This document shows positions 55,174 to 64,000 of a stretch of 64,000 bases of DNA, in pieces (position 1 is the first letter of the stretch; each line of letters starts with the position of its first letter). The stretch is from Methanoplanus endosymbiosus (GTDB taxonomy: Archaea; Halobacteriota; Methanomicrobia; Methanomicrobiales; Methanomicrobiaceae), in NCBI RefSeq assembly GCF_024662215.1, contig NZ_CP096115.1, positions 1,922,001 to 1,986,000 on the forward strand, given 5' to 3'. The notes beneath the pieces were generated by a model that saw nothing but the letters and a program-made list of their open reading frames with translations, searched no databases and was not told where the DNA came from. The position numbers and the translations under genes are program-made.

Positions 55174-57180
55174 TTAATCCTCGATATTAATATAACCGGG
55201 GACTGATTTCGGATCACTCTCTCCCTCCCCATCAACAGTCCGGTATTTCTGATATGGATGCGTGGTGACATTTTTGTATTTCTGCTCAAGCTTTCCTTCG
55301 CGGAGCATGGGGATAATGTAATGTATTCTTAGTGAATCCTTATTCCGGTTAAGAAGAGCAGACAGTTCCTCAAGCGTCAGATCCCGGTCTTTACATAATT
55401 CCAGAATGGTTGATATTACAAGTTTTTTTGGGGCCTTCTTTACAGAATTTACAGATTCTGCAATGATCTGCAATGCATCCAAATGTTCGGAGTTCTCTTT
55501 CAAATGTTCGGAGTTCTCTTTCAAATGTTCGGAGTTCTCTTTCAAATGTTCGGAGTTCTCTTTCAAATGTTCGGAGCTTGCCTTTGAACATATTTTTCCT
55601 CCAAACATTTCATCCTCCATCGGGTGCCTTCCCGGCATGTAGTAGAAAGTATTCCTTCCCGAACCCTCACTTGCCAATAATCCCTGTTTCACCAGGTGAT
55701 GAAGTGAAATGGTTATGTCGTGTGGGTGCTCTCTGCTTAGCTCTCTGAGCCTGCTGTGATTTACGCAACTTTCAGAATATGCAGTTACCATCGCAAGGCG
55801 CTCGACATTTCCCAAATCGCTGAATAGATCTCCAAATTCCAATTTCAACGCATACAAAGCATCTTCCGGCAGGAGACTTGTCATCTTCAGGATGAATACA
55901 GTCTGATTACTTTCATGCCTCTCTTCGAGCATTGGCTCACGCCAGTGTTGGAGTTGCCAGTTTAGGTAGATCTTCGGGAACCCTGATCCTGCCTGTTCAC
56001 CAAGGCCGATGAGCTGAAACATCTTCTGCAGATTCCGGTTACGACAGTCGCTGACTCCGCCACGGATTGCCTCTGATTTAGGAATTCTCATGAGTCCCGG
56101 ATTCCTGAAACCAAAGAGACCGGGGCGTTTTACGACAAGTAATGAGCAGTTTCCGGAGTAATCTGCATGAATTATCGTATTTACCAGAGCTTCACGCAGT
56201 GCCTCGTGTACCGGTGTGTCCTCGATTCTTTCATCACCATTCAGCTTAAAGGGCACTTTCAGATCAGAGGACAGTTTTTTCATTACTGTCCGGTAGAAAT
56301 CATACAGGCACCCAGACCATGATCCATCCAGAGTGATTCTGTCAATCCATCGGGTATCAGTATTTTCCCGTTCCTGATAATCTACAATATAATTGGGAAC
56401 TGCATCAAGAATTGAACGGAATTTACCAAACATTAATAGTCCTGCAAGGGTAAGACCTTCTTTTCCAGTCTGGCGGTTTCGTTTCCATCCGCCTATCTGG
56501 CGCAGAAATTCTCTGTCATCACATTCATTAAACGGGTGATTTGGTTTGCGATTTGAGAACTGCTGCCGGTATATACGAAATGATTCTTTGTCAATATCAT
56601 CAATGTTGAAGTCTTCAAGAGTAACGGCATCTCTGGTATCATTTGCCTGCTCACCGAGCATCTGTTTTACCAGTTCGGGCTGACACCTGTAATCGCCCTC
56701 ATTCTGACGTTGATATGTCCCTTCAAGAGGATTTGTTCCGATATAGACCGGGCGCTGTTTACGTGAAGCCTGTGGGACAGAGACAATTATGATATTTTTA
56801 TCGTCATCTCTGAGTGATTGTATGTCTTTATTTTGGAGTATGTTTGCACTCACTTTTTTTGGATTGTTAAGATTATTCCAGATGTCCTGAATCATCCGTT
56901 CATATTTCAGCAAATTATGAAATACAATACAATCCTCTGTTTCCTGTGCTCCAAGAATTATGATGCCCCCACTGGTATTTGCCATTGCAGAATAGGTCTC
57001 CCAGAAGGATTCAGGAACTGCTCCTCTTTTATCCCTTCCAAGTGCAGTTTTTAGTTCAACGTCAAAACCTTCCTTCAGGGAATCCAAGTCAAAAAAGTCT
57101 TCATGAATCATATTATGCTCCCTGAGGTGTGCATCAGGCAGCTCCTTTGCTATGCCCCTTTCAGTTTTTGTCTCTTTCAT
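55174..57180 (-). CDS. AlbA_2/Schlafen-domain ATP-binding protein with in-frame tandem repeat
   Basis: 668 residues. An AlbA_2 (Schlafen-like) N-terminal domain reads LKEGFDVELKTALGR, then SAMANTSGGIIILGAQ. A middle ATPase-like part has HEALREALVNTIIHADYSG and FRNPGLMRIPKSEAIRGG, as in COG2865-type predicted regulators. A winged-helix region follows (ELSREHPHDITISLHHLVKQGLL). Then comes four and a half copies of the heptad SEHLKEN, encoded by a 21-bp tandem repeat at 55481-55576, and a last winged helix. Members are often near defence or mobile genes. The start has no strong ribosome site. Confidence 0.82.
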   Translation of the reverse strand: MKETKTERGIAKELPDAHLREHNMIHEDFFDLDSLKEGFDVELKTALGRDKRGAVPESFWETYSAMANTSGGIIILGAQETEDCIVFHNLLKYERMIQDIWNNLNNPKKVSANILQNKDIQSLRDDDKNIIIVSVPQASRKQRPVYIGTNPLEGTYQRQNEGDYRCQPELVKQMLGEQANDTRDAVTLEDFNIDDIDKESFRIYRQQFSNRKPNHPFNECDDREFLRQIGGWKRNRQTGKEGLTLAGLLMFGKFRSILDAVPNYIVDYQERENTDTRWIDRITLDGSWSGCLYDFYRTVMKKLSSDLKVPFKLNGDERIEDTPVHEALREALVNTIIHADYSGNCSLLVVKRPGLFGFRNPGLMRIPKSEAIRGGVSDCRNRNLQKMFQLIGLGEQAGSGFPKIYLNWQLQHWREPMLEERHESNQTVFILKMTSLLPEDALYALKLEFGDLFSDLGNVERLAMVTAYSESCVNHSRLRELSREHPHDITISLHHLVKQGLLASEGSGRNTFYYMPGRHPMEDEMFGGKICSKASSEHLKENSEHLKENSEHLKENSEHLKENSEHLDALQIIAESVNSVKKAPKKLVISTILELCKDRDLTLEELSALLNRNKDSLRIHYIIPMLREGKLEQKYKNVTTHPYQKYRTVDGEGESDPKSVPGYINIED
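55481..55576. repeat. 21-bp coding tandem repeat (four full units plus a partial)
   Basis: The unit AAATGTTCGGAGTTCTCTTTC recurs exactly at 55481, 55502, 55523 and 55544, with 12 bases of a fifth unit. Identical copies at DNA level, including wobble positions, show recent expansion. As 21 is divisible by three the frame is kept, and on the minus strand each unit encodes SEHLKEN. Confidence 0.95.
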
Positions 57181-57621: not shown

Positions 57622-57653
57622 TAAATTTATTCTGATTTCCAAAATATAAAAAA

Positions 57654-57682
57654 GTCATTCATGAACCCGCGGGTTCACAGAT
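57654..57682 (+). repeat. 29-bp hairpin-forming intergenic repeat, copy 2
   Basis: Matches 22870-22898 at 26 of 29 bases. Here GAACCCGCGGGTTC is a perfect 14-bp palindrome. It is followed by a second hairpin, ATGAAACA-AA-TGTTTCAT, and by the shared TCATAGGAG. It lies 3' of the MBL-fold gene (minus strand) and, read that way, the palindrome is followed by TTTTTT. Confidence 0.7.
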
Positions 57683-57762
57683 GGCAGATGAAACAAATGT
57701 TTCATAGGAGTATTATCTTGTTTTTCCGGGATTTGGCTGCTGAATAGTGTTTGCTCTTCTCT

Positions 57763-58683: not shown

Positions 58684-59292
58684 TTAAACTGTCTCTTTTT
58701 CGGAGGGCATCTCCGTTGCTGTTGTGTTATCAAGCCTCTCCTGAAGTCCGGCTGTTGCATAGATAGATCGTATGACTGAATCAATCTCTGCAAGGTTTGA
58801 ATCCGGATTTGTGTTCAGTTCCAGTGAGAGCAGGGGCAGTACAGGGCCGCCGATCTTGATTAGTGCAAGTGATGCACCTTCAGTCTCTTCCTGATCTCCG
58901 GTATTAAGAGCATCGATTAACGGCTGATATGCCGGCTCACCTATACATGCCAGGATATTTGATGCCCATTCACGCTGGTTCTTATCATCTGATGACAGCA
59001 GTCTGATCATAGGTTCAACTGAAATTTCACCCATCTGGCAGAGGGCTACGGCTGCCCATGTTGCTGACTGTTTATCTTCAGATGAGAGCATAGCACTCAG
59101 CTGCGGTATGGCGGGTGTTCCGGTCTCTGCAAGTGCCTCCGCTGCCTCCTTCTTCTCTTCCTGTGTGCCTGATTTAAGAGAGTCAATGTACCCTGAAATC
59201 TCTGCATCTCCACTGCTCTCTCCTGTACATCCTGCAAAGAGAGAGATTATCAGAAGCAGGGACAGTAACACTGATGTCCAGAATATTTTCAT
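58684..59292 (-). CDS. HEAT-repeat lipoprotein
   Basis: 202 residues. The signal peptide LLSLLLIISLFAGC ends in a lipobox. About four HEAT/PBS-type repeats follow (KKEAAEALAETGTPAIPQL, QREWASNILACIGEPAYQPL). It would be a membrane-attached helical scaffold outside the cell. It ends 31 bp upstream of the MBL gene start and could be co-transcribed with it. Confidence 0.78.
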   Translation of the reverse strand: MKIFWTSVLLSLLLIISLFAGCTGESSGDAEISGYIDSLKSGTQEEKKEAAEALAETGTPAIPQLSAMLSSEDKQSATWAAVALCQMGEISVEPMIRLLSSDDKNQREWASNILACIGEPAYQPLIDALNTGDQEETEGASLALIKIGGPVLPLLSLELNTNPDSNLAEIDSVIRSIYATAGLQERLDNTTATEMPSEKETV

Positions 59293-59383: not shown

Positions 59384-59734
59384 ATGGTTATTAGCGAAGT
59401 TCCCTGTCCAAAGTGCGGGAAGACCGGATTATATGTCGAAACGCCATCTGACAATGAAGTGTGGGTAAAATGCCATGAATGTGATCTTTTTATCGGCATG
59501 AGTGATGAAGACTGGCACAGGATTCATAATTCTCCCAATCTTCATGAAAAAATTGCAAAGCTCTATAGAACAGAATATCCAGGGTCTGTCTCAGGGAGAT
59601 CGTGCCGTGCGTGTAAATCTGAGAAGGATGATCTTATATTTGGGATCTGCAAATCCTGCCTCTATAAATTTCTGATCGTAATTCTTGTCATAATGGTCAT
59701 AGGATCCTATGCCATCTGGATGGCTGTGCTGTAA
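59384..59734 (+). CDS. Zinc-ribbon protein with C-terminal membrane helix
   Basis: 116 residues. Two zinc knuckle pairs are visible: CPKCGK with CHEC, and CRACKSE with CKSC. A hydrophobic helix, FLIVILVIMVIGSYAIWM, ends the protein, so the ribbons probably face the cytoplasm. I recognise no family. It lies just before the PP2C-FHA-kinase genes on the same strand (211-bp gap), so a link with them is possible but unproven. Confidence 0.65.
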   Translation: MVISEVPCPKCGKTGLYVETPSDNEVWVKCHECDLFIGMSDEDWHRIHNSPNLHEKIAKLYRTEYPGSVSGRSCRACKSEKDDLIFGICKSCLYKFLIVILVIMVIGSYAIWMAVL

Positions 59735-59945
59735 TCCGGGATATTTATATCCTATATATTTTTTATTTAACCCTGCGGGAATACCGGTTAACCTATACTA
59801 TATAATATATTAATAACTCCTGAAATACAATCTCTACATGTATCATAAATCCCATTCTCCTGACAAGAAAAGAGGGTATGGGAATAGATAACATTGAAAT
59901 GGCTTAATTATCTTATAACACAACAGGCTAAACCTTAAGAATTAA

Positions 59946-60701
59946 ATGTCAGATAATATATGCCGGAAACTGGAGTCTTCCGGAAGAGCAGATATGGATT
60001 ACAGTTGTGTGACAGTTCCGGGTAAACGTGTTTACAATGAAGATTCCTGTATAGTTGAAGCTGTGGCTGACGGCATACTGCTTGCAGTGGCTGACGGCCT
60101 TGGCGGGCATGCTGCCGGTGAGGTGGCATCCGGAATCGCTATTGATACGCTCAGGTCTGTTTTTATGACTAAATACAGAACCGGGGCCGGAATTTTGGGT
60201 GCAGAGGCTTTAATGCGCCTTGCATTTGAGGAGGCAGACCGGATTATAACTTCAGAGGCGAAGGATGAACGGGAAGGCATGGGCACGACTCTCTCCGCAG
60301 CATTTATTATTGATGGTTCAGTTATTGTCGGAAATACCGGGGATTCAAGGGTTTATCTTCTTGACGGAAGTCTCAGGCAGATTACAAAGGATCACTCTCT
60401 TGTCCAGGAACTTGTGGACAAGGGAATGGTGGATGCTGAATCTGCAAGATTCCATCCGATGAAGCATATAATCAGGCATTCTCTCGGTGGTGATTTCAGG
60501 GTTGACATAATATCTGATACACTAAGCCCTAAAATAACGCTTCTTCTCTCAACAGATGGCCTTCATGATTATATTGGTGCAGACCGGATTGAAGAGATAT
60601 TAAAAGAGGGGGATGCCTGTGAGGCAGCAAAGAGTCTCATCGATGAGGCTCTTTCATCTTCAGATGACAATATCACAGCAGTTGTTATGAGGACTGACTG
60701 A
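59946..60701 (+). CDS. PP2C-type Ser/Thr protein phosphatase (PPM family)
   Basis: 251 residues. All main PP2C motifs are visible: GKRVYNEDSC, LAVADGLGGHAAGEVAS, VGNTGDSRVYLL, LLLSTDGLHDYI and SSDDNITAVVM. The aspartates hold two Mn/Mg ions. It is soluble. Its neighbours are an HTH-FHA protein and a membrane Ser/Thr kinase, so it likely reverses the kinase's phosphorylation. Confidence 0.92.
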   Translation: MSDNICRKLESSGRADMDYSCVTVPGKRVYNEDSCIVEAVADGILLAVADGLGGHAAGEVASGIAIDTLRSVFMTKYRTGAGILGAEALMRLAFEEADRIITSEAKDEREGMGTTLSAAFIIDGSVIVGNTGDSRVYLLDGSLRQITKDHSLVQELVDKGMVDAESARFHPMKHIIRHSLGGDFRVDIISDTLSPKITLLLSTDGLHDYIGADRIEEILKEGDACEAAKSLIDEALSSSDDNITAVVMRTD

Positions 60702-60805
60702 CCACTGTTATCAGGACTGACTGAATACAGCCCTTCTTGATTACCTGAGGGCTTTTAAACTAATTAACATCTCTATATTTACAGAATAAGGATAAGGAGG
60801 CTTTT

Positions 60806-61588
60806 ATGGCAGGAATTTATGACGGAAATGAGAAGACAATTGCAATTAATTCTGACCCGGATTTTTATGAGGACTTATCTGAGTACTTAAATGTCCTCTC
60901 TAACCCTACAAGGCTCAGAATGCTGAAATTCATTGAACATCATCCAAAAGAAGTGCGTGAGATCGCAAAAGAGATCAATACCAGTTATGAGAACACAAAG
61001 AAGCACCTTGATAAACTGCTTAAGACCGGAGTTATAAAAAAAGAGGCCGGTATGGGACGACAGACCTCTAAAGGTGCTCTTCCGGTCTGGAAATATTCGA
61101 TAATTCCGGGTGGGATGGAAGGAATAATCAGGAATTTAAGTATATTCTCAAATGTTGATGTAAGGATTGGCGAGAGTGAGATCAATGAAAAACTTGAGAA
61201 TATAAGAAAGATGATTGCAGAAGATTCAGGCTCTGATGTACCTGTCCTGGTTATGCTTGGGGGGGAAGCTGACGGGAGTGCCTATCCTCTCAAATCAGAT
61301 GATGTCAGGATTGGCAGGGAGGATAATTCTGCTCCCCAGTACAGTTCTTCAGATGACGCTGTTGTAGTTCCGGGTTCATATGAAGCCGTAACAAGAATTT
61401 CAAAACCCCATGCACGGTTTTTTAAAAGGCATAATATCTGGTATTTTGAAGACTGTGACTCCACAGGCGGTTCTTTTATAAACAGCGAAAAGATAAGTCC
61501 TTTCAGAGAGACTGCGTTAAAAGGCGGAGATATGATTGACCTTGGACGGGGTGCCCGCGGTGCGAGGCTCATATTTAATGCCCTTTAA
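60806..61588 (+). CDS. ArsR-like HTH plus FHA domain protein
   Basis: 260 residues with AAGGAGG before the ATG. A winged helix spans about 25-90 (LNVLSNPTRLRMLKFIEHHP, EIAKEINTSYENTKKHLDKL). A C-terminal FHA domain spans about 150-258: DVRIGRED, the conserved Ser-x-x-His in ISKPHARFF, and DSTGGSFINSEKI. FHA domains bind phosphothreonine, so DNA binding may be set by the neighbouring kinase and phosphatase. A direct HTH-FHA fusion is uncommon. Confidence 0.88.
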   Translation: MAGIYDGNEKTIAINSDPDFYEDLSEYLNVLSNPTRLRMLKFIEHHPKEVREIAKEINTSYENTKKHLDKLLKTGVIKKEAGMGRQTSKGALPVWKYSIIPGGMEGIIRNLSIFSNVDVRIGESEINEKLENIRKMIAEDSGSDVPVLVMLGGEADGSAYPLKSDDVRIGREDNSAPQYSSSDDAVVVPGSYEAVTRISKPHARFFKRHNIWYFEDCDSTGGSFINSEKISPFRETALKGGDMIDLGRGARGARLIFNAL

Positions 61589-61660
61589 GTAATATATTAT
61601 ATTATCATAATTCCTTTTTTGGTGGCGGAATTATTATTTTGGGCGAAGGAGGTAGCAGGA

Positions 61661-64000
61661 ATGACAATACCGGATATTCAATCTAAGTCTAAAATTAATG
61701 GATTTCTGTACTTTCTTCTTCTGCTGTCACTGCTTATTCTGTTAATCCCGAATGCTGCACTTGGTGCACCGGTTTATGTGGGTGGGAATGACGGCTTTTC
61801 AGATATTGCCTCTGCAGTCAATTCAACTAAACCCGGAGATACTGTAATTGTAAATTCCGGTGTTTATGCCGAGAATCTTCTCATTACAAAGTCCATAAAT
61901 ATTATTGGCAATGACTCCGGGCAGGGCACTCCAAAGATTGAGAGTTCATACGGGGATGCAGCTGTTAAGATAAATGCGGATTATGTTACGGTTGATGGGC
62001 TTATCATAAGCGGAAACGCTGATTCCGGGGTGGTTGTCCGTGGTAATAATATAACCGTCAGCAATTGCGATATTCAGTCCACTCCTTCCGGAATTACAAT
62101 ATCTCAGTCTTTGTATGTTACAGTCCGGGAGAATACTATTCGCGGGCATGAGTTGGGCCTTTTCATCGATGAGTCTGATGGGTGCAGTGTATATCTCAAT
62201 GATTTTGAGAATAATGACAATGTCAGATGTCTCTCTTCCGGTGTGGTGTGGCATTCATCCGATACTGTGTATAATTATAGGGGGAATAATTTCACCTCAT
62301 CTCTGGGCAATTACTGGAATGATTATGTCGGCACTGACGGGAGCGGTGATGGTATAGGGGATGTGCCTTATACCGGTTATTCCGGGGGAAAAGTCTTTGT
62401 TCCGGACAGGAATTTCTATGCCGTAAACGGGGTGAATCCTTCTGGAGGCAGAATTTTTTCCGGGGAAAATCTCGTTGAGGATGATTATCCACTCATATCC
62501 CATGTTTCTGATTATATGCTCCCGCATCCCGGAGGTTTTTCTGGTGTAGACGGATTCCACGGTAAAACTGTGGGGGATAACCGGAGCAGAATTCCTGAGT
62601 ATAATATTGGTGATCTTTCCGAAATGAATCTCAGCCGCCCGCCTCAGAATCCTCCTGCTACGCCGTTGCTTTCAGGTGTTTCTCCTCCTGAGGTGGTTGT
62701 TCTGATGCTTCTCATGTCCGGTGTTATTGCCGGAATGTTTGATCTTGTAGGAGGTTACAGGGAGGTTGATTACAGGGATACACGCATCAGGAGAAACGGG
62801 ATAAAATTCCTTTATGGTGGCTATATCGCAATTGCAATTGCAATGCTGTATTCTGTAATTTCATATACCTCACGGCTGATCATCAGAAATATCGATTATG
62901 GTATTATTCAGATCTCATTTATTGCTTTGACAACATTTCTGATCGCTTCCTCGGCAATATTGTCATACAATTTTATAAAAGGGGGCGTGCCGGTTCTTCT
63001 GAGCAGGCTGCATGCCCCCCTTGCAGCATTTGGGTTTATATTTTATTTTATCTCCATTTATACAGCGCCTGTTGATCTTGGCCCTTTTAACAGTATAATT
63101 TATCCTGTATGTCTTATTCTGTCGGTATTCATGCCCCTTCTATATTTTTATATCTATGAGAGTTCTGCGCAGAAATCGGTAAAGGAAGAGATAATTTCTG
63201 GTTTTTATCCGGAAGTTCTCTCATCTGATACCATTGTTGCCTCTGTGGATTACAATAATACCACGATATTTGATAATGAATCCGGCATTATGGGCTCGGC
63301 ACTTTCAGGTTCATATTTCCCCGAATGTCTTGGTGAGCGTTATTCCGATGTGGAATTTATCGGTAAAGGCGGAATTGCCAGAGTATTTAAAGTCTCCAGG
63401 AGGGATGACGGTGCAGTTGTTGCTGTGAAAGTTCCGATCAATTTTGATGAGGTTACAGGGCGTTTTTTCATGAAGGAGATGAGGATATGGGAAGAACTGT
63501 CTCATAAGAATATTGTGAAGCTTTTTTCAGTCAATATTCTGCCTGTACCCTTCGTTGAGATGGAGTATGTCGTTTCTGACCTTTCGGAGTCAGAAAAACC
63601 GCTCTCTGTAATGGAGACTCTTAAGATTATTGAAGGAATAGCTGAGGGCCTTTCATATGCGCACAACCTTGGTATCATTCATCGTGATATAAAACCGCAG
63701 AATATCTTAGTGACTGAAGAGGGTATTGCAAAGATCACCGACTGGGGCCTTGGCAAGATGATTGCAGATGGGCATGAGACAACTGTGGTGGGTTTTTCAC
63801 TGAATTATGCCGCTCCTGAACAGATTGCCCCACGCAGGTTTGGCAGCCCTGATGAGAGGACTGATATTTATCAGATGGGCGTTGTCCTTTATGAGCTGGT
63901 CGTAGGCATGAGGCCGTTCTTCGGAGGAGGTGTGGGTGAGATGACTGATGAGATTATCCACCGGATGCCGATGAAACCATCAGAAAACCGCTCTTCTGAT
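61661..64000 (+). CDS. Membrane Ser/Thr protein kinase with NosD-like beta-helix (runs off edge)
   Basis: 780 residues are visible, and the frame is open at the right edge. GAAGGAGGT precedes the ATG. Residues 1-36 form a signal peptide (LLLLSLLILLIPNAALG). About 40-300 is a parallel beta-helix of the NosD/CASH type, with short repeats such as ITVSNCDIQS and the GNYWNDYVGTDGSGDGIGD block. Five membrane helices follow (about 350-530), placing the C-terminus inside. The kinase domain begins near 560: GKGGIARVFK (568), Lys590 in VAVKV, HRDIKPQN (674; Asp676), and DWGLG (694) where most kinases have DFG, then APEQ. The kinase C-lobe is cut by the window. Confidence 0.88.
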   Translation, partial: MTIPDIQSKSKINGFLYFLLLLSLLILLIPNAALGAPVYVGGNDGFSDIASAVNSTKPGDTVIVNSGVYAENLLITKSINIIGNDSGQGTPKIESSYGDAAVKINADYVTVDGLIISGNADSGVVVRGNNITVSNCDIQSTPSGITISQSLYVTVRENTIRGHELGLFIDESDGCSVYLNDFENNDNVRCLSSGVVWHSSDTVYNYRGNNFTSSLGNYWNDYVGTDGSGDGIGDVPYTGYSGGKVFVPDRNFYAVNGVNPSGGRIFSGENLVEDDYPLISHVSDYMLPHPGGFSGVDGFHGKTVGDNRSRIPEYNIGDLSEMNLSRPPQNPPATPLLSGVSPPEVVVLMLLMSGVIAGMFDLVGGYREVDYRDTRIRRNGIKFLYGGYIAIAIAMLYSVISYTSRLIIRNIDYGIIQISFIALTTFLIASSAILSYNFIKGGVPVLLSRLHAPLAAFGFIFYFISIYTAPVDLGPFNSIIYPVCLILSVFMPLLYFYIYESSAQKSVKEEIISGFYPEVLSSDTIVASVDYNNTTIFDNESGIMGSALSGSYFPECLGERYSDVEFIGKGGIARVFKVSRRDDGAVVAVKVPINFDEVTGRFFMKEMRIWEELSHKNIVKLFSVNILPVPFVEMEYVVSDLSESEKPLSVMETLKIIEGIAEGLSYAHNLGIIHRDIKPQNILVTEEGIAKITDWGLGKMIADGHETTVVGFSLNYAAPEQIAPRRFGSPDERTDIYQMGVVLYELVVGMRPFFGGGVGEMTDEIIHRMPMKPSENRSSD

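Follow-up and report, generated by a model that had tools for sequence, protein, structure and literature searches.

Little is known about control of archaeal genes by Ser/Thr phosphorylation outside Sulfolobales. The right end of a 64,000-nucleotide stretch of Methanoplanus endosymbiosus DNA (hereafter the window; G000:C1:1922001-1986000 in a focal genome of 3.16 Mb, one contig) raises the question of whether a phosphatase, a DNA-binding phosphothreonine reader and a membrane kinase encoded side by side constitute a signalling pathway from the cell exterior to a promoter.

Gene order and linkage of the kinase-regulator pair

Three genes are located in line on the plus strand, as the original prediction had it, and both ORF coordinates and Pfam domains agree with this order: a Stp1/IreP-like PP2C phosphatase (59946-60701; 251 aa; Pfam PP2C_2, 2.5e-12; 190 bits against the NCBIfam Stp1 model, under the 230-bit cut-off), an HTH-FHA regulator (60806-61588; 260 aa) and a membrane Ser/Thr kinase (61619-64000 within the window; 836 aa in total, of which the final 42 residues are encoded beyond the window). 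The zinc-ribbon membrane protein noted ahead of this set is encoded there (59384-59734, plus strand), but its gene forms its own unit outside the operon, since the operon's own promoter sits between this gene and that for PP2C; being absent in several orthologous loci, the zinc-ribbon protein was rejected as an operon member or pathway component. A divergent gene for a HEAT-repeat lipoprotein (58684-59292, minus strand; Pfam HEAT_2, 5.7e-14) is a conserved neighbour of PP2C-containing modules among close orthologs. Further to the left, a Schlafen AlbA_2 protein gene (55174-57180, minus strand) carries a tandem SEHLKEN heptapeptide repeat, possibly a hypervariable coding repeat.

The full-length HTH-FHA protein is confined to Methanomicrobiales, where a strong match was identified in about 98 of 150 genomes, and matches in the rest of the phylum cover the HTH alone. 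A same-strand kinase gene follows 115 unique HTH-FHA genes, with a median gap of 30 bp (more than 400 bp in three pairs, reaching 3.9 kb in one of them), and the linkage on which the original prediction depended is thus conserved in relatives. The eight HTH-FHA genes without a downstream kinase are all located near a contig end; L088, which has the longest sequence left behind it, was dismissed as a kinase-less exception: the ORF downstream, of sensor type, encodes an extracytoplasmic region and membrane helices and is cut off by the contig end. PP2C neighbours the pair in only about 15 loci, most of them orthologous to the focal locus, and what recurs universally is HTH-FHA plus kinase. This pair occurs in up to four copies per genome. 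Related kinases were detected in all of the eight tested genomes with HTH-FHA vs one of the 11 without, several of these counts being inflated by kinship of genomes and sequences. When partners were swapped within 14 genomes, the distance correlation, 0.754 as observed, fell to 0.408 on average (sd 0.092), and only one of 5000 swaps reached the observed value, indicating that cognate kinases and HTH-FHA proteins co-evolve, as judged from sequence distances. A third module of the focal genome (L007:8571-14701), without HTH-FHA, consists of a kinase with PEGA-like repeats, a PP2C and a zinc-ribbon/SPFH-like protein.

Domains and candidate phosphosites

Extension of the contig to the right completed the kinase, which stops at L006:11130 (about 64129 in window numbering) and includes a full C-lobe. 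Pfam identified a kinase domain (Pkinase, 3.7e-39; 63317-64000 within the window) and NosD (about 2e-16 to 4.1e-16), and the alignment revealed the Gly-rich loop, VAVK, the alpha-C Glu, HRDIKPQN (HRD at 63680-63688), DWG (63740-63748), APE and the C-lobe Arg. The inactive kinase lacking C-lobe motifs, which would have spoken against a pathway, was therefore not what lies beyond the window. By its motifs the enzyme is catalytically complete and fits a Hanks-type (PknB-like) Ser/Thr kinase, for which phosphotransfer is predicted; it gives 192 bits against the PknB model, falling short of that model's full-length cut-off for lack of PASTA domains. The DWG variant of DFG, pointed out earlier as a peculiarity, is present but is the family norm, since it replaces DFG in 99% of 113 related kinases. 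CK2 is an active kinase bearing DWG. The HRD Arg is replaced in about 10% of related kinases, by Cys (L130, L132, L137, L156, L163), Leu (L052, L063, L159) or His (L133, L138), and activation-loop control may therefore differ in these modules.

The AlphaFold model of the kinase (33-row alignment; mean pLDDT 73) shows a kinase fold and contains both the NosD-like beta-helix and the five membrane helices of the original prediction, which had overlooked an additional N-terminal hydrophobic segment (residues 22-47; signal peptide or anchor) ahead of the helices. The beta-helix (residues 75-220; 61841-62278; pLDDT mostly above 90) is predicted to be extracytoplasmic, and is connected through a disordered stretch to the membrane helices (residues 356-529; 62684-63205, by hydropathy and the model). 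Translation of the kinase may in fact begin with the ATG at 61661 instead of the TTG at 61619. Among 57 kinases, 23 carry NosD and 13 PEGA, and the remainder have membrane helices only or unrecognised ectodomains; NosD is thus one of several interchangeable sensors, with the output partner being constant.

Between the membrane helices and the kinase domain lies a disordered juxtamembrane linker (residues about 530-562; 63206-63316), of which Thr549 (codon 63263-63265) is a candidate docking site for FHA. It is the one alignable Thr column, 73% conserved, in an otherwise poorly alignable linker. Since alignment itself can create conserved Thr columns, linkers were also analysed unaligned: T[ILV][ILVFM] was found in 10 of 23 non-redundant linkers vs 1.9 in shuffles (z 6.8), the Ser and Ala versions were not above chance in this set, and the reversed pattern was mildly raised (z 2.5). 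The second kinase of the focal genome has no clear T-hydrophobic-hydrophobic match at the place of T549.

The regulator consists of a winged HTH (residues about 18-99; ArsR-type HTH_5, 3.7e-6), a helical linker and an FHA domain (147-258; 1.7e-10), a layout supported by Pfam, AlphaFold, Foldseek and alignments of 62 and 115 members. G170, R171, H202 and N226 are retained in 100% and S/T199 in 98% of 115 sequences, and with its phosphothreonine-binding residues kept, the FHA domain is predicted to be a phosphothreonine reader. The set of kinase, reader and phosphatase is complete, as first supposed. The N-terminal tail (residues 1-17) is predicted to be disordered (pLDDT below 50), and its sole invariant residue is T11 (codon 60836-60838), kept in every family member possessing the tail. 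T11 is followed by [ILV] and hydrophobic residues, with L, V or I at +3 in about 82%, and the consensus T-[ILV]-hydrophobic-[LVI] resembles a short FHA-binding motif, making T11 a candidate phosphosite.

Winged-HTH arms are able to touch DNA. It is conceivable, but in our view unlikely, that T11 is kept for structure or DNA contact, and that the FHA domain only docks on the autophosphorylated kinase while the regulator is phosphorylated elsewhere. Activation-loop Ser/Thr residues, which are common in the kinase family, agree with this possibility, and EmbR interacts with PknH through its FHA domain (PMC4601284). T11 is, however, located in a predicted disordered tail with the hydrophobic +3 of a short FHA-binding motif, and exactly such tails are used by three known FHA proteins.

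The reading that we consider probable is instead a one-kinase/one-regulator phosphothreonine module with a tail-capture switch acting on operators; linkage, conservation, motif statistics, operator architecture and distribution were obtained by computation, and from these we infer phosphorylation, docking, operator binding and activation. The kinase would sense an outside signal via the NosD beta-helix on the five membrane helices and autophosphorylate, probably also on a Thr of the flexible juxtamembrane linker. HTH-FHA would dock through its FHA domain on this linker phosphothreonine and then be phosphorylated by the kinase on T11 of its disordered tail. Capture of pT11 by FHA, either in the same subunit or in another one, as happens in GarA, OdhI and DgcB, would alter dimerisation and DNA binding, and PP2C would reset the switch.

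Operators and candidate targets

The dyad AACC-N4-GGTT was detected in 18 of 80 non-redundant HTH-FHA upstream regions vs 0.1 expected, and GGTT-N9-AACC in 15 of 80; after shuffling of these regions, no dyad was above 7. A PWM built from these sites identified further sites directly behind the kinase gene in other clades, and also in the focal genome (C1:1986242-1986288) and its sister genome. In a scan of six genomes of the family, in which TTTATA was demanded 20-34 bp downstream of the operator, the operator-TATA spacing was 29 bp in 17 of 25 matches (binomial P about 7e-15 for fixed spacing). The fixed position 29 bp upstream of TATA suggests HTH-FHA as an activator, and activation is preferred over repression because the operator lies upstream of TATA. 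A scan for sigma-70-type promoters was set aside as inapplicable to archaea.

The candidate operator and TATA of the PP2C-HTH-FHA-kinase operon form a 47-bp architecture at 59769-59815 (plus strand), consisting of AACC-CTGC-GGGA, a third half-site AACC (59790-59793) and TTAATA (59810-59815). The same architecture ending with TTAATA precedes the operon in all of the 10 orthologous loci examined, with 11-14 of 14 fixed positions matched (12 in the focal site). None of 300 shuffles was as good in nine of these promoters, including the focal one, and 11 of 300 were in L126.

It is highly improbable that the palindromes have no role in regulation and are copies of a dispersed repeat. A repeat family, AACCNGCNGGTTCACAGATGATGAATGAAAC, does share this palindrome; about 20 members occur in the sister genome, and a similar sequence lies at window position 57664. 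The operator-TATA sites, however, vary between their fixed elements, hold the 29-bp spacing and occupy orthologous promoters. The repeat itself, found at window 57644-57695 and in the sister genome (G025), is a different element sharing the operator palindrome; the palindrome at 57664, before a lipoprotein gene, was rejected as an operator, being part of this repeat with a different TATA spacing.

HTH-FHA is predicted to bind the AACC-N4-GGTT operators. Many HTH-FHA loci, among them those of Methanoculleus and the focal genome's second one, had no operator in the PWM scan, and kinase and HTH-FHA might be a signalling pair while the operators belong to another regulator. We regard this as rather unlikely, because in different families the operators occupy promoters of the module itself, because they also lie directly behind its kinase, and because 14 related genomes without full-length HTH-FHA show no operator-TATA pattern. 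Four Methanofollis-like genomes gave no match to the strict pattern although they have HTH-FHA, but PWM sites do occur behind their kinases.

As part of the proposed switch, HTH-FHA would bind AACC-N4-GGTT operators, often with further half-sites, at the fixed distance of 29 bp upstream of TATA. It is predicted to control its own PP2C-HTH-FHA-kinase operon, or in other families the HTH-FHA gene itself, along with a candidate small RNA encoded just after the kinase gene; in relatives, genes for an XRE regulator, secreted proteins and lipoproteins would also be targets.

The candidate small RNA (L006:11243-11430, equal to C1:1986242-1986429) is located just outside the window, with operator and TATA ahead. 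The stretch after the operator is conserved between the focal and sister genomes without a stable reading frame, and a 161-aa ORF in this region was not supported as coding because the region is conserved at the DNA level with frame-changing indels. A 51-nt segment is predicted to form a hairpin (-18.3 kcal/mol, z -3.6), and a second copy (C1:974108-974231), 81% identical over 123 nt, has its own operator and TATA ahead. Rfam searches of the region behind the kinase gave only matches far under gathering scores. At C1:1817215 (L220; L255 in the sister genome), another operator-driven stretch without an ORF carries a conserved ACACCTCC and a hairpin with a T run. It looks like a second small RNA with a terminator-like hairpin, and ACACCTCC is complementary to the Shine-Dalgarno sequence, as read by eye.

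An operator also precedes an operon of a small protein and an XRE-family regulator in four genomes (L247/L252, C1:1542408; equivalents L227 and L225 in G001 and G007). Other operators are located before genes for lipoproteins, one of them of DUF4349, and for other signal-peptide proteins in several families, and the common theme of these putative targets is the cell envelope.

A wider reading, which we offer tentatively and hold to be somewhat less probable than its negation, is that of an archaeal counterpart of two-component systems that extends across the order. In it, each of a range of interchangeable receptor kinases would have its own HTH-FHA with a tail-phosphothreonine switch, and through a nearly invariant recognition helix all copies would converge on one operator controlling envelope lipoproteins and small RNAs.

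Comparison with known systems

The view that no archaeal pathway of this form has been described holds within the open-licence papers searched, in which no such description was found. The proposed route leads from the outside to a promoter, with kinase, reader, phosphatase, candidate phosphosites, operator and targets all named; it is conserved across a methanogen order, and each of its steps becomes directly testable.

The vWA-PP2C-kinase triad (TerY-P type) resembles the focal module in having kinase and PP2C side by side, but has neither FHA nor a DNA-binding protein, and no membrane sensor was seen. The focal genome also has a TerY-P-like triad at L009:8364-12005, in which a vWA protein, a PP2C and a soluble kinase are encoded consecutively. 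In Sulfolobales, which belong to a different phylum, ArnA and ArnB link an archaeal FHA protein and Ser/Thr kinases to gene regulation (PMC10470591, PMC6509490). ArnA combines zinc ribbon and FHA in one chain and is partnered by a vWA protein, whereas here the zinc ribbon has a gene to itself and the cluster showed no vWA gene.

By Foldseek, the FHA fold is closest to GarA, OdhI and DgcB, in which FHA binds a phosphothreonine of the protein's own N-terminal tail and the +3 residue matters (PMC6733907, PMC5448819). The conserved Thr in a disordered tail with hydrophobic +3 is shared, but these proteins regulate enzymes or carry a GGDEF domain, without a winged HTH between tail and FHA, and GarA's ETTS motif is absent from the HTH-FHA tail.

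The PknH-EmbR/MstP system of Mycobacterium tuberculosis consists of a receptor Ser/Thr kinase, an FHA regulator and a PP2C phosphatase that dephosphorylates the regulator, and has cell-envelope outputs (PMC4601284). Similarly, a DNA-binding regulator with C-terminal FHA, to which EmbR aligns over the FHA part (Foldseek), is encoded here beside a receptor Ser/Thr kinase, together with PP2C and predicted envelope outputs. By this analogy the module appears to work like PknH-EmbR, yet is no member of that family, because the OmpR/SARP-type HTH and the BTA domain of EmbR were not found and only an ArsR-like HTH and FHA are present. It further differs from PknH-EmbR in the NosD beta-helix on five membrane helices, in the presence of up to four copies of the pair, and in the candidate operator of an archaeal promoter.
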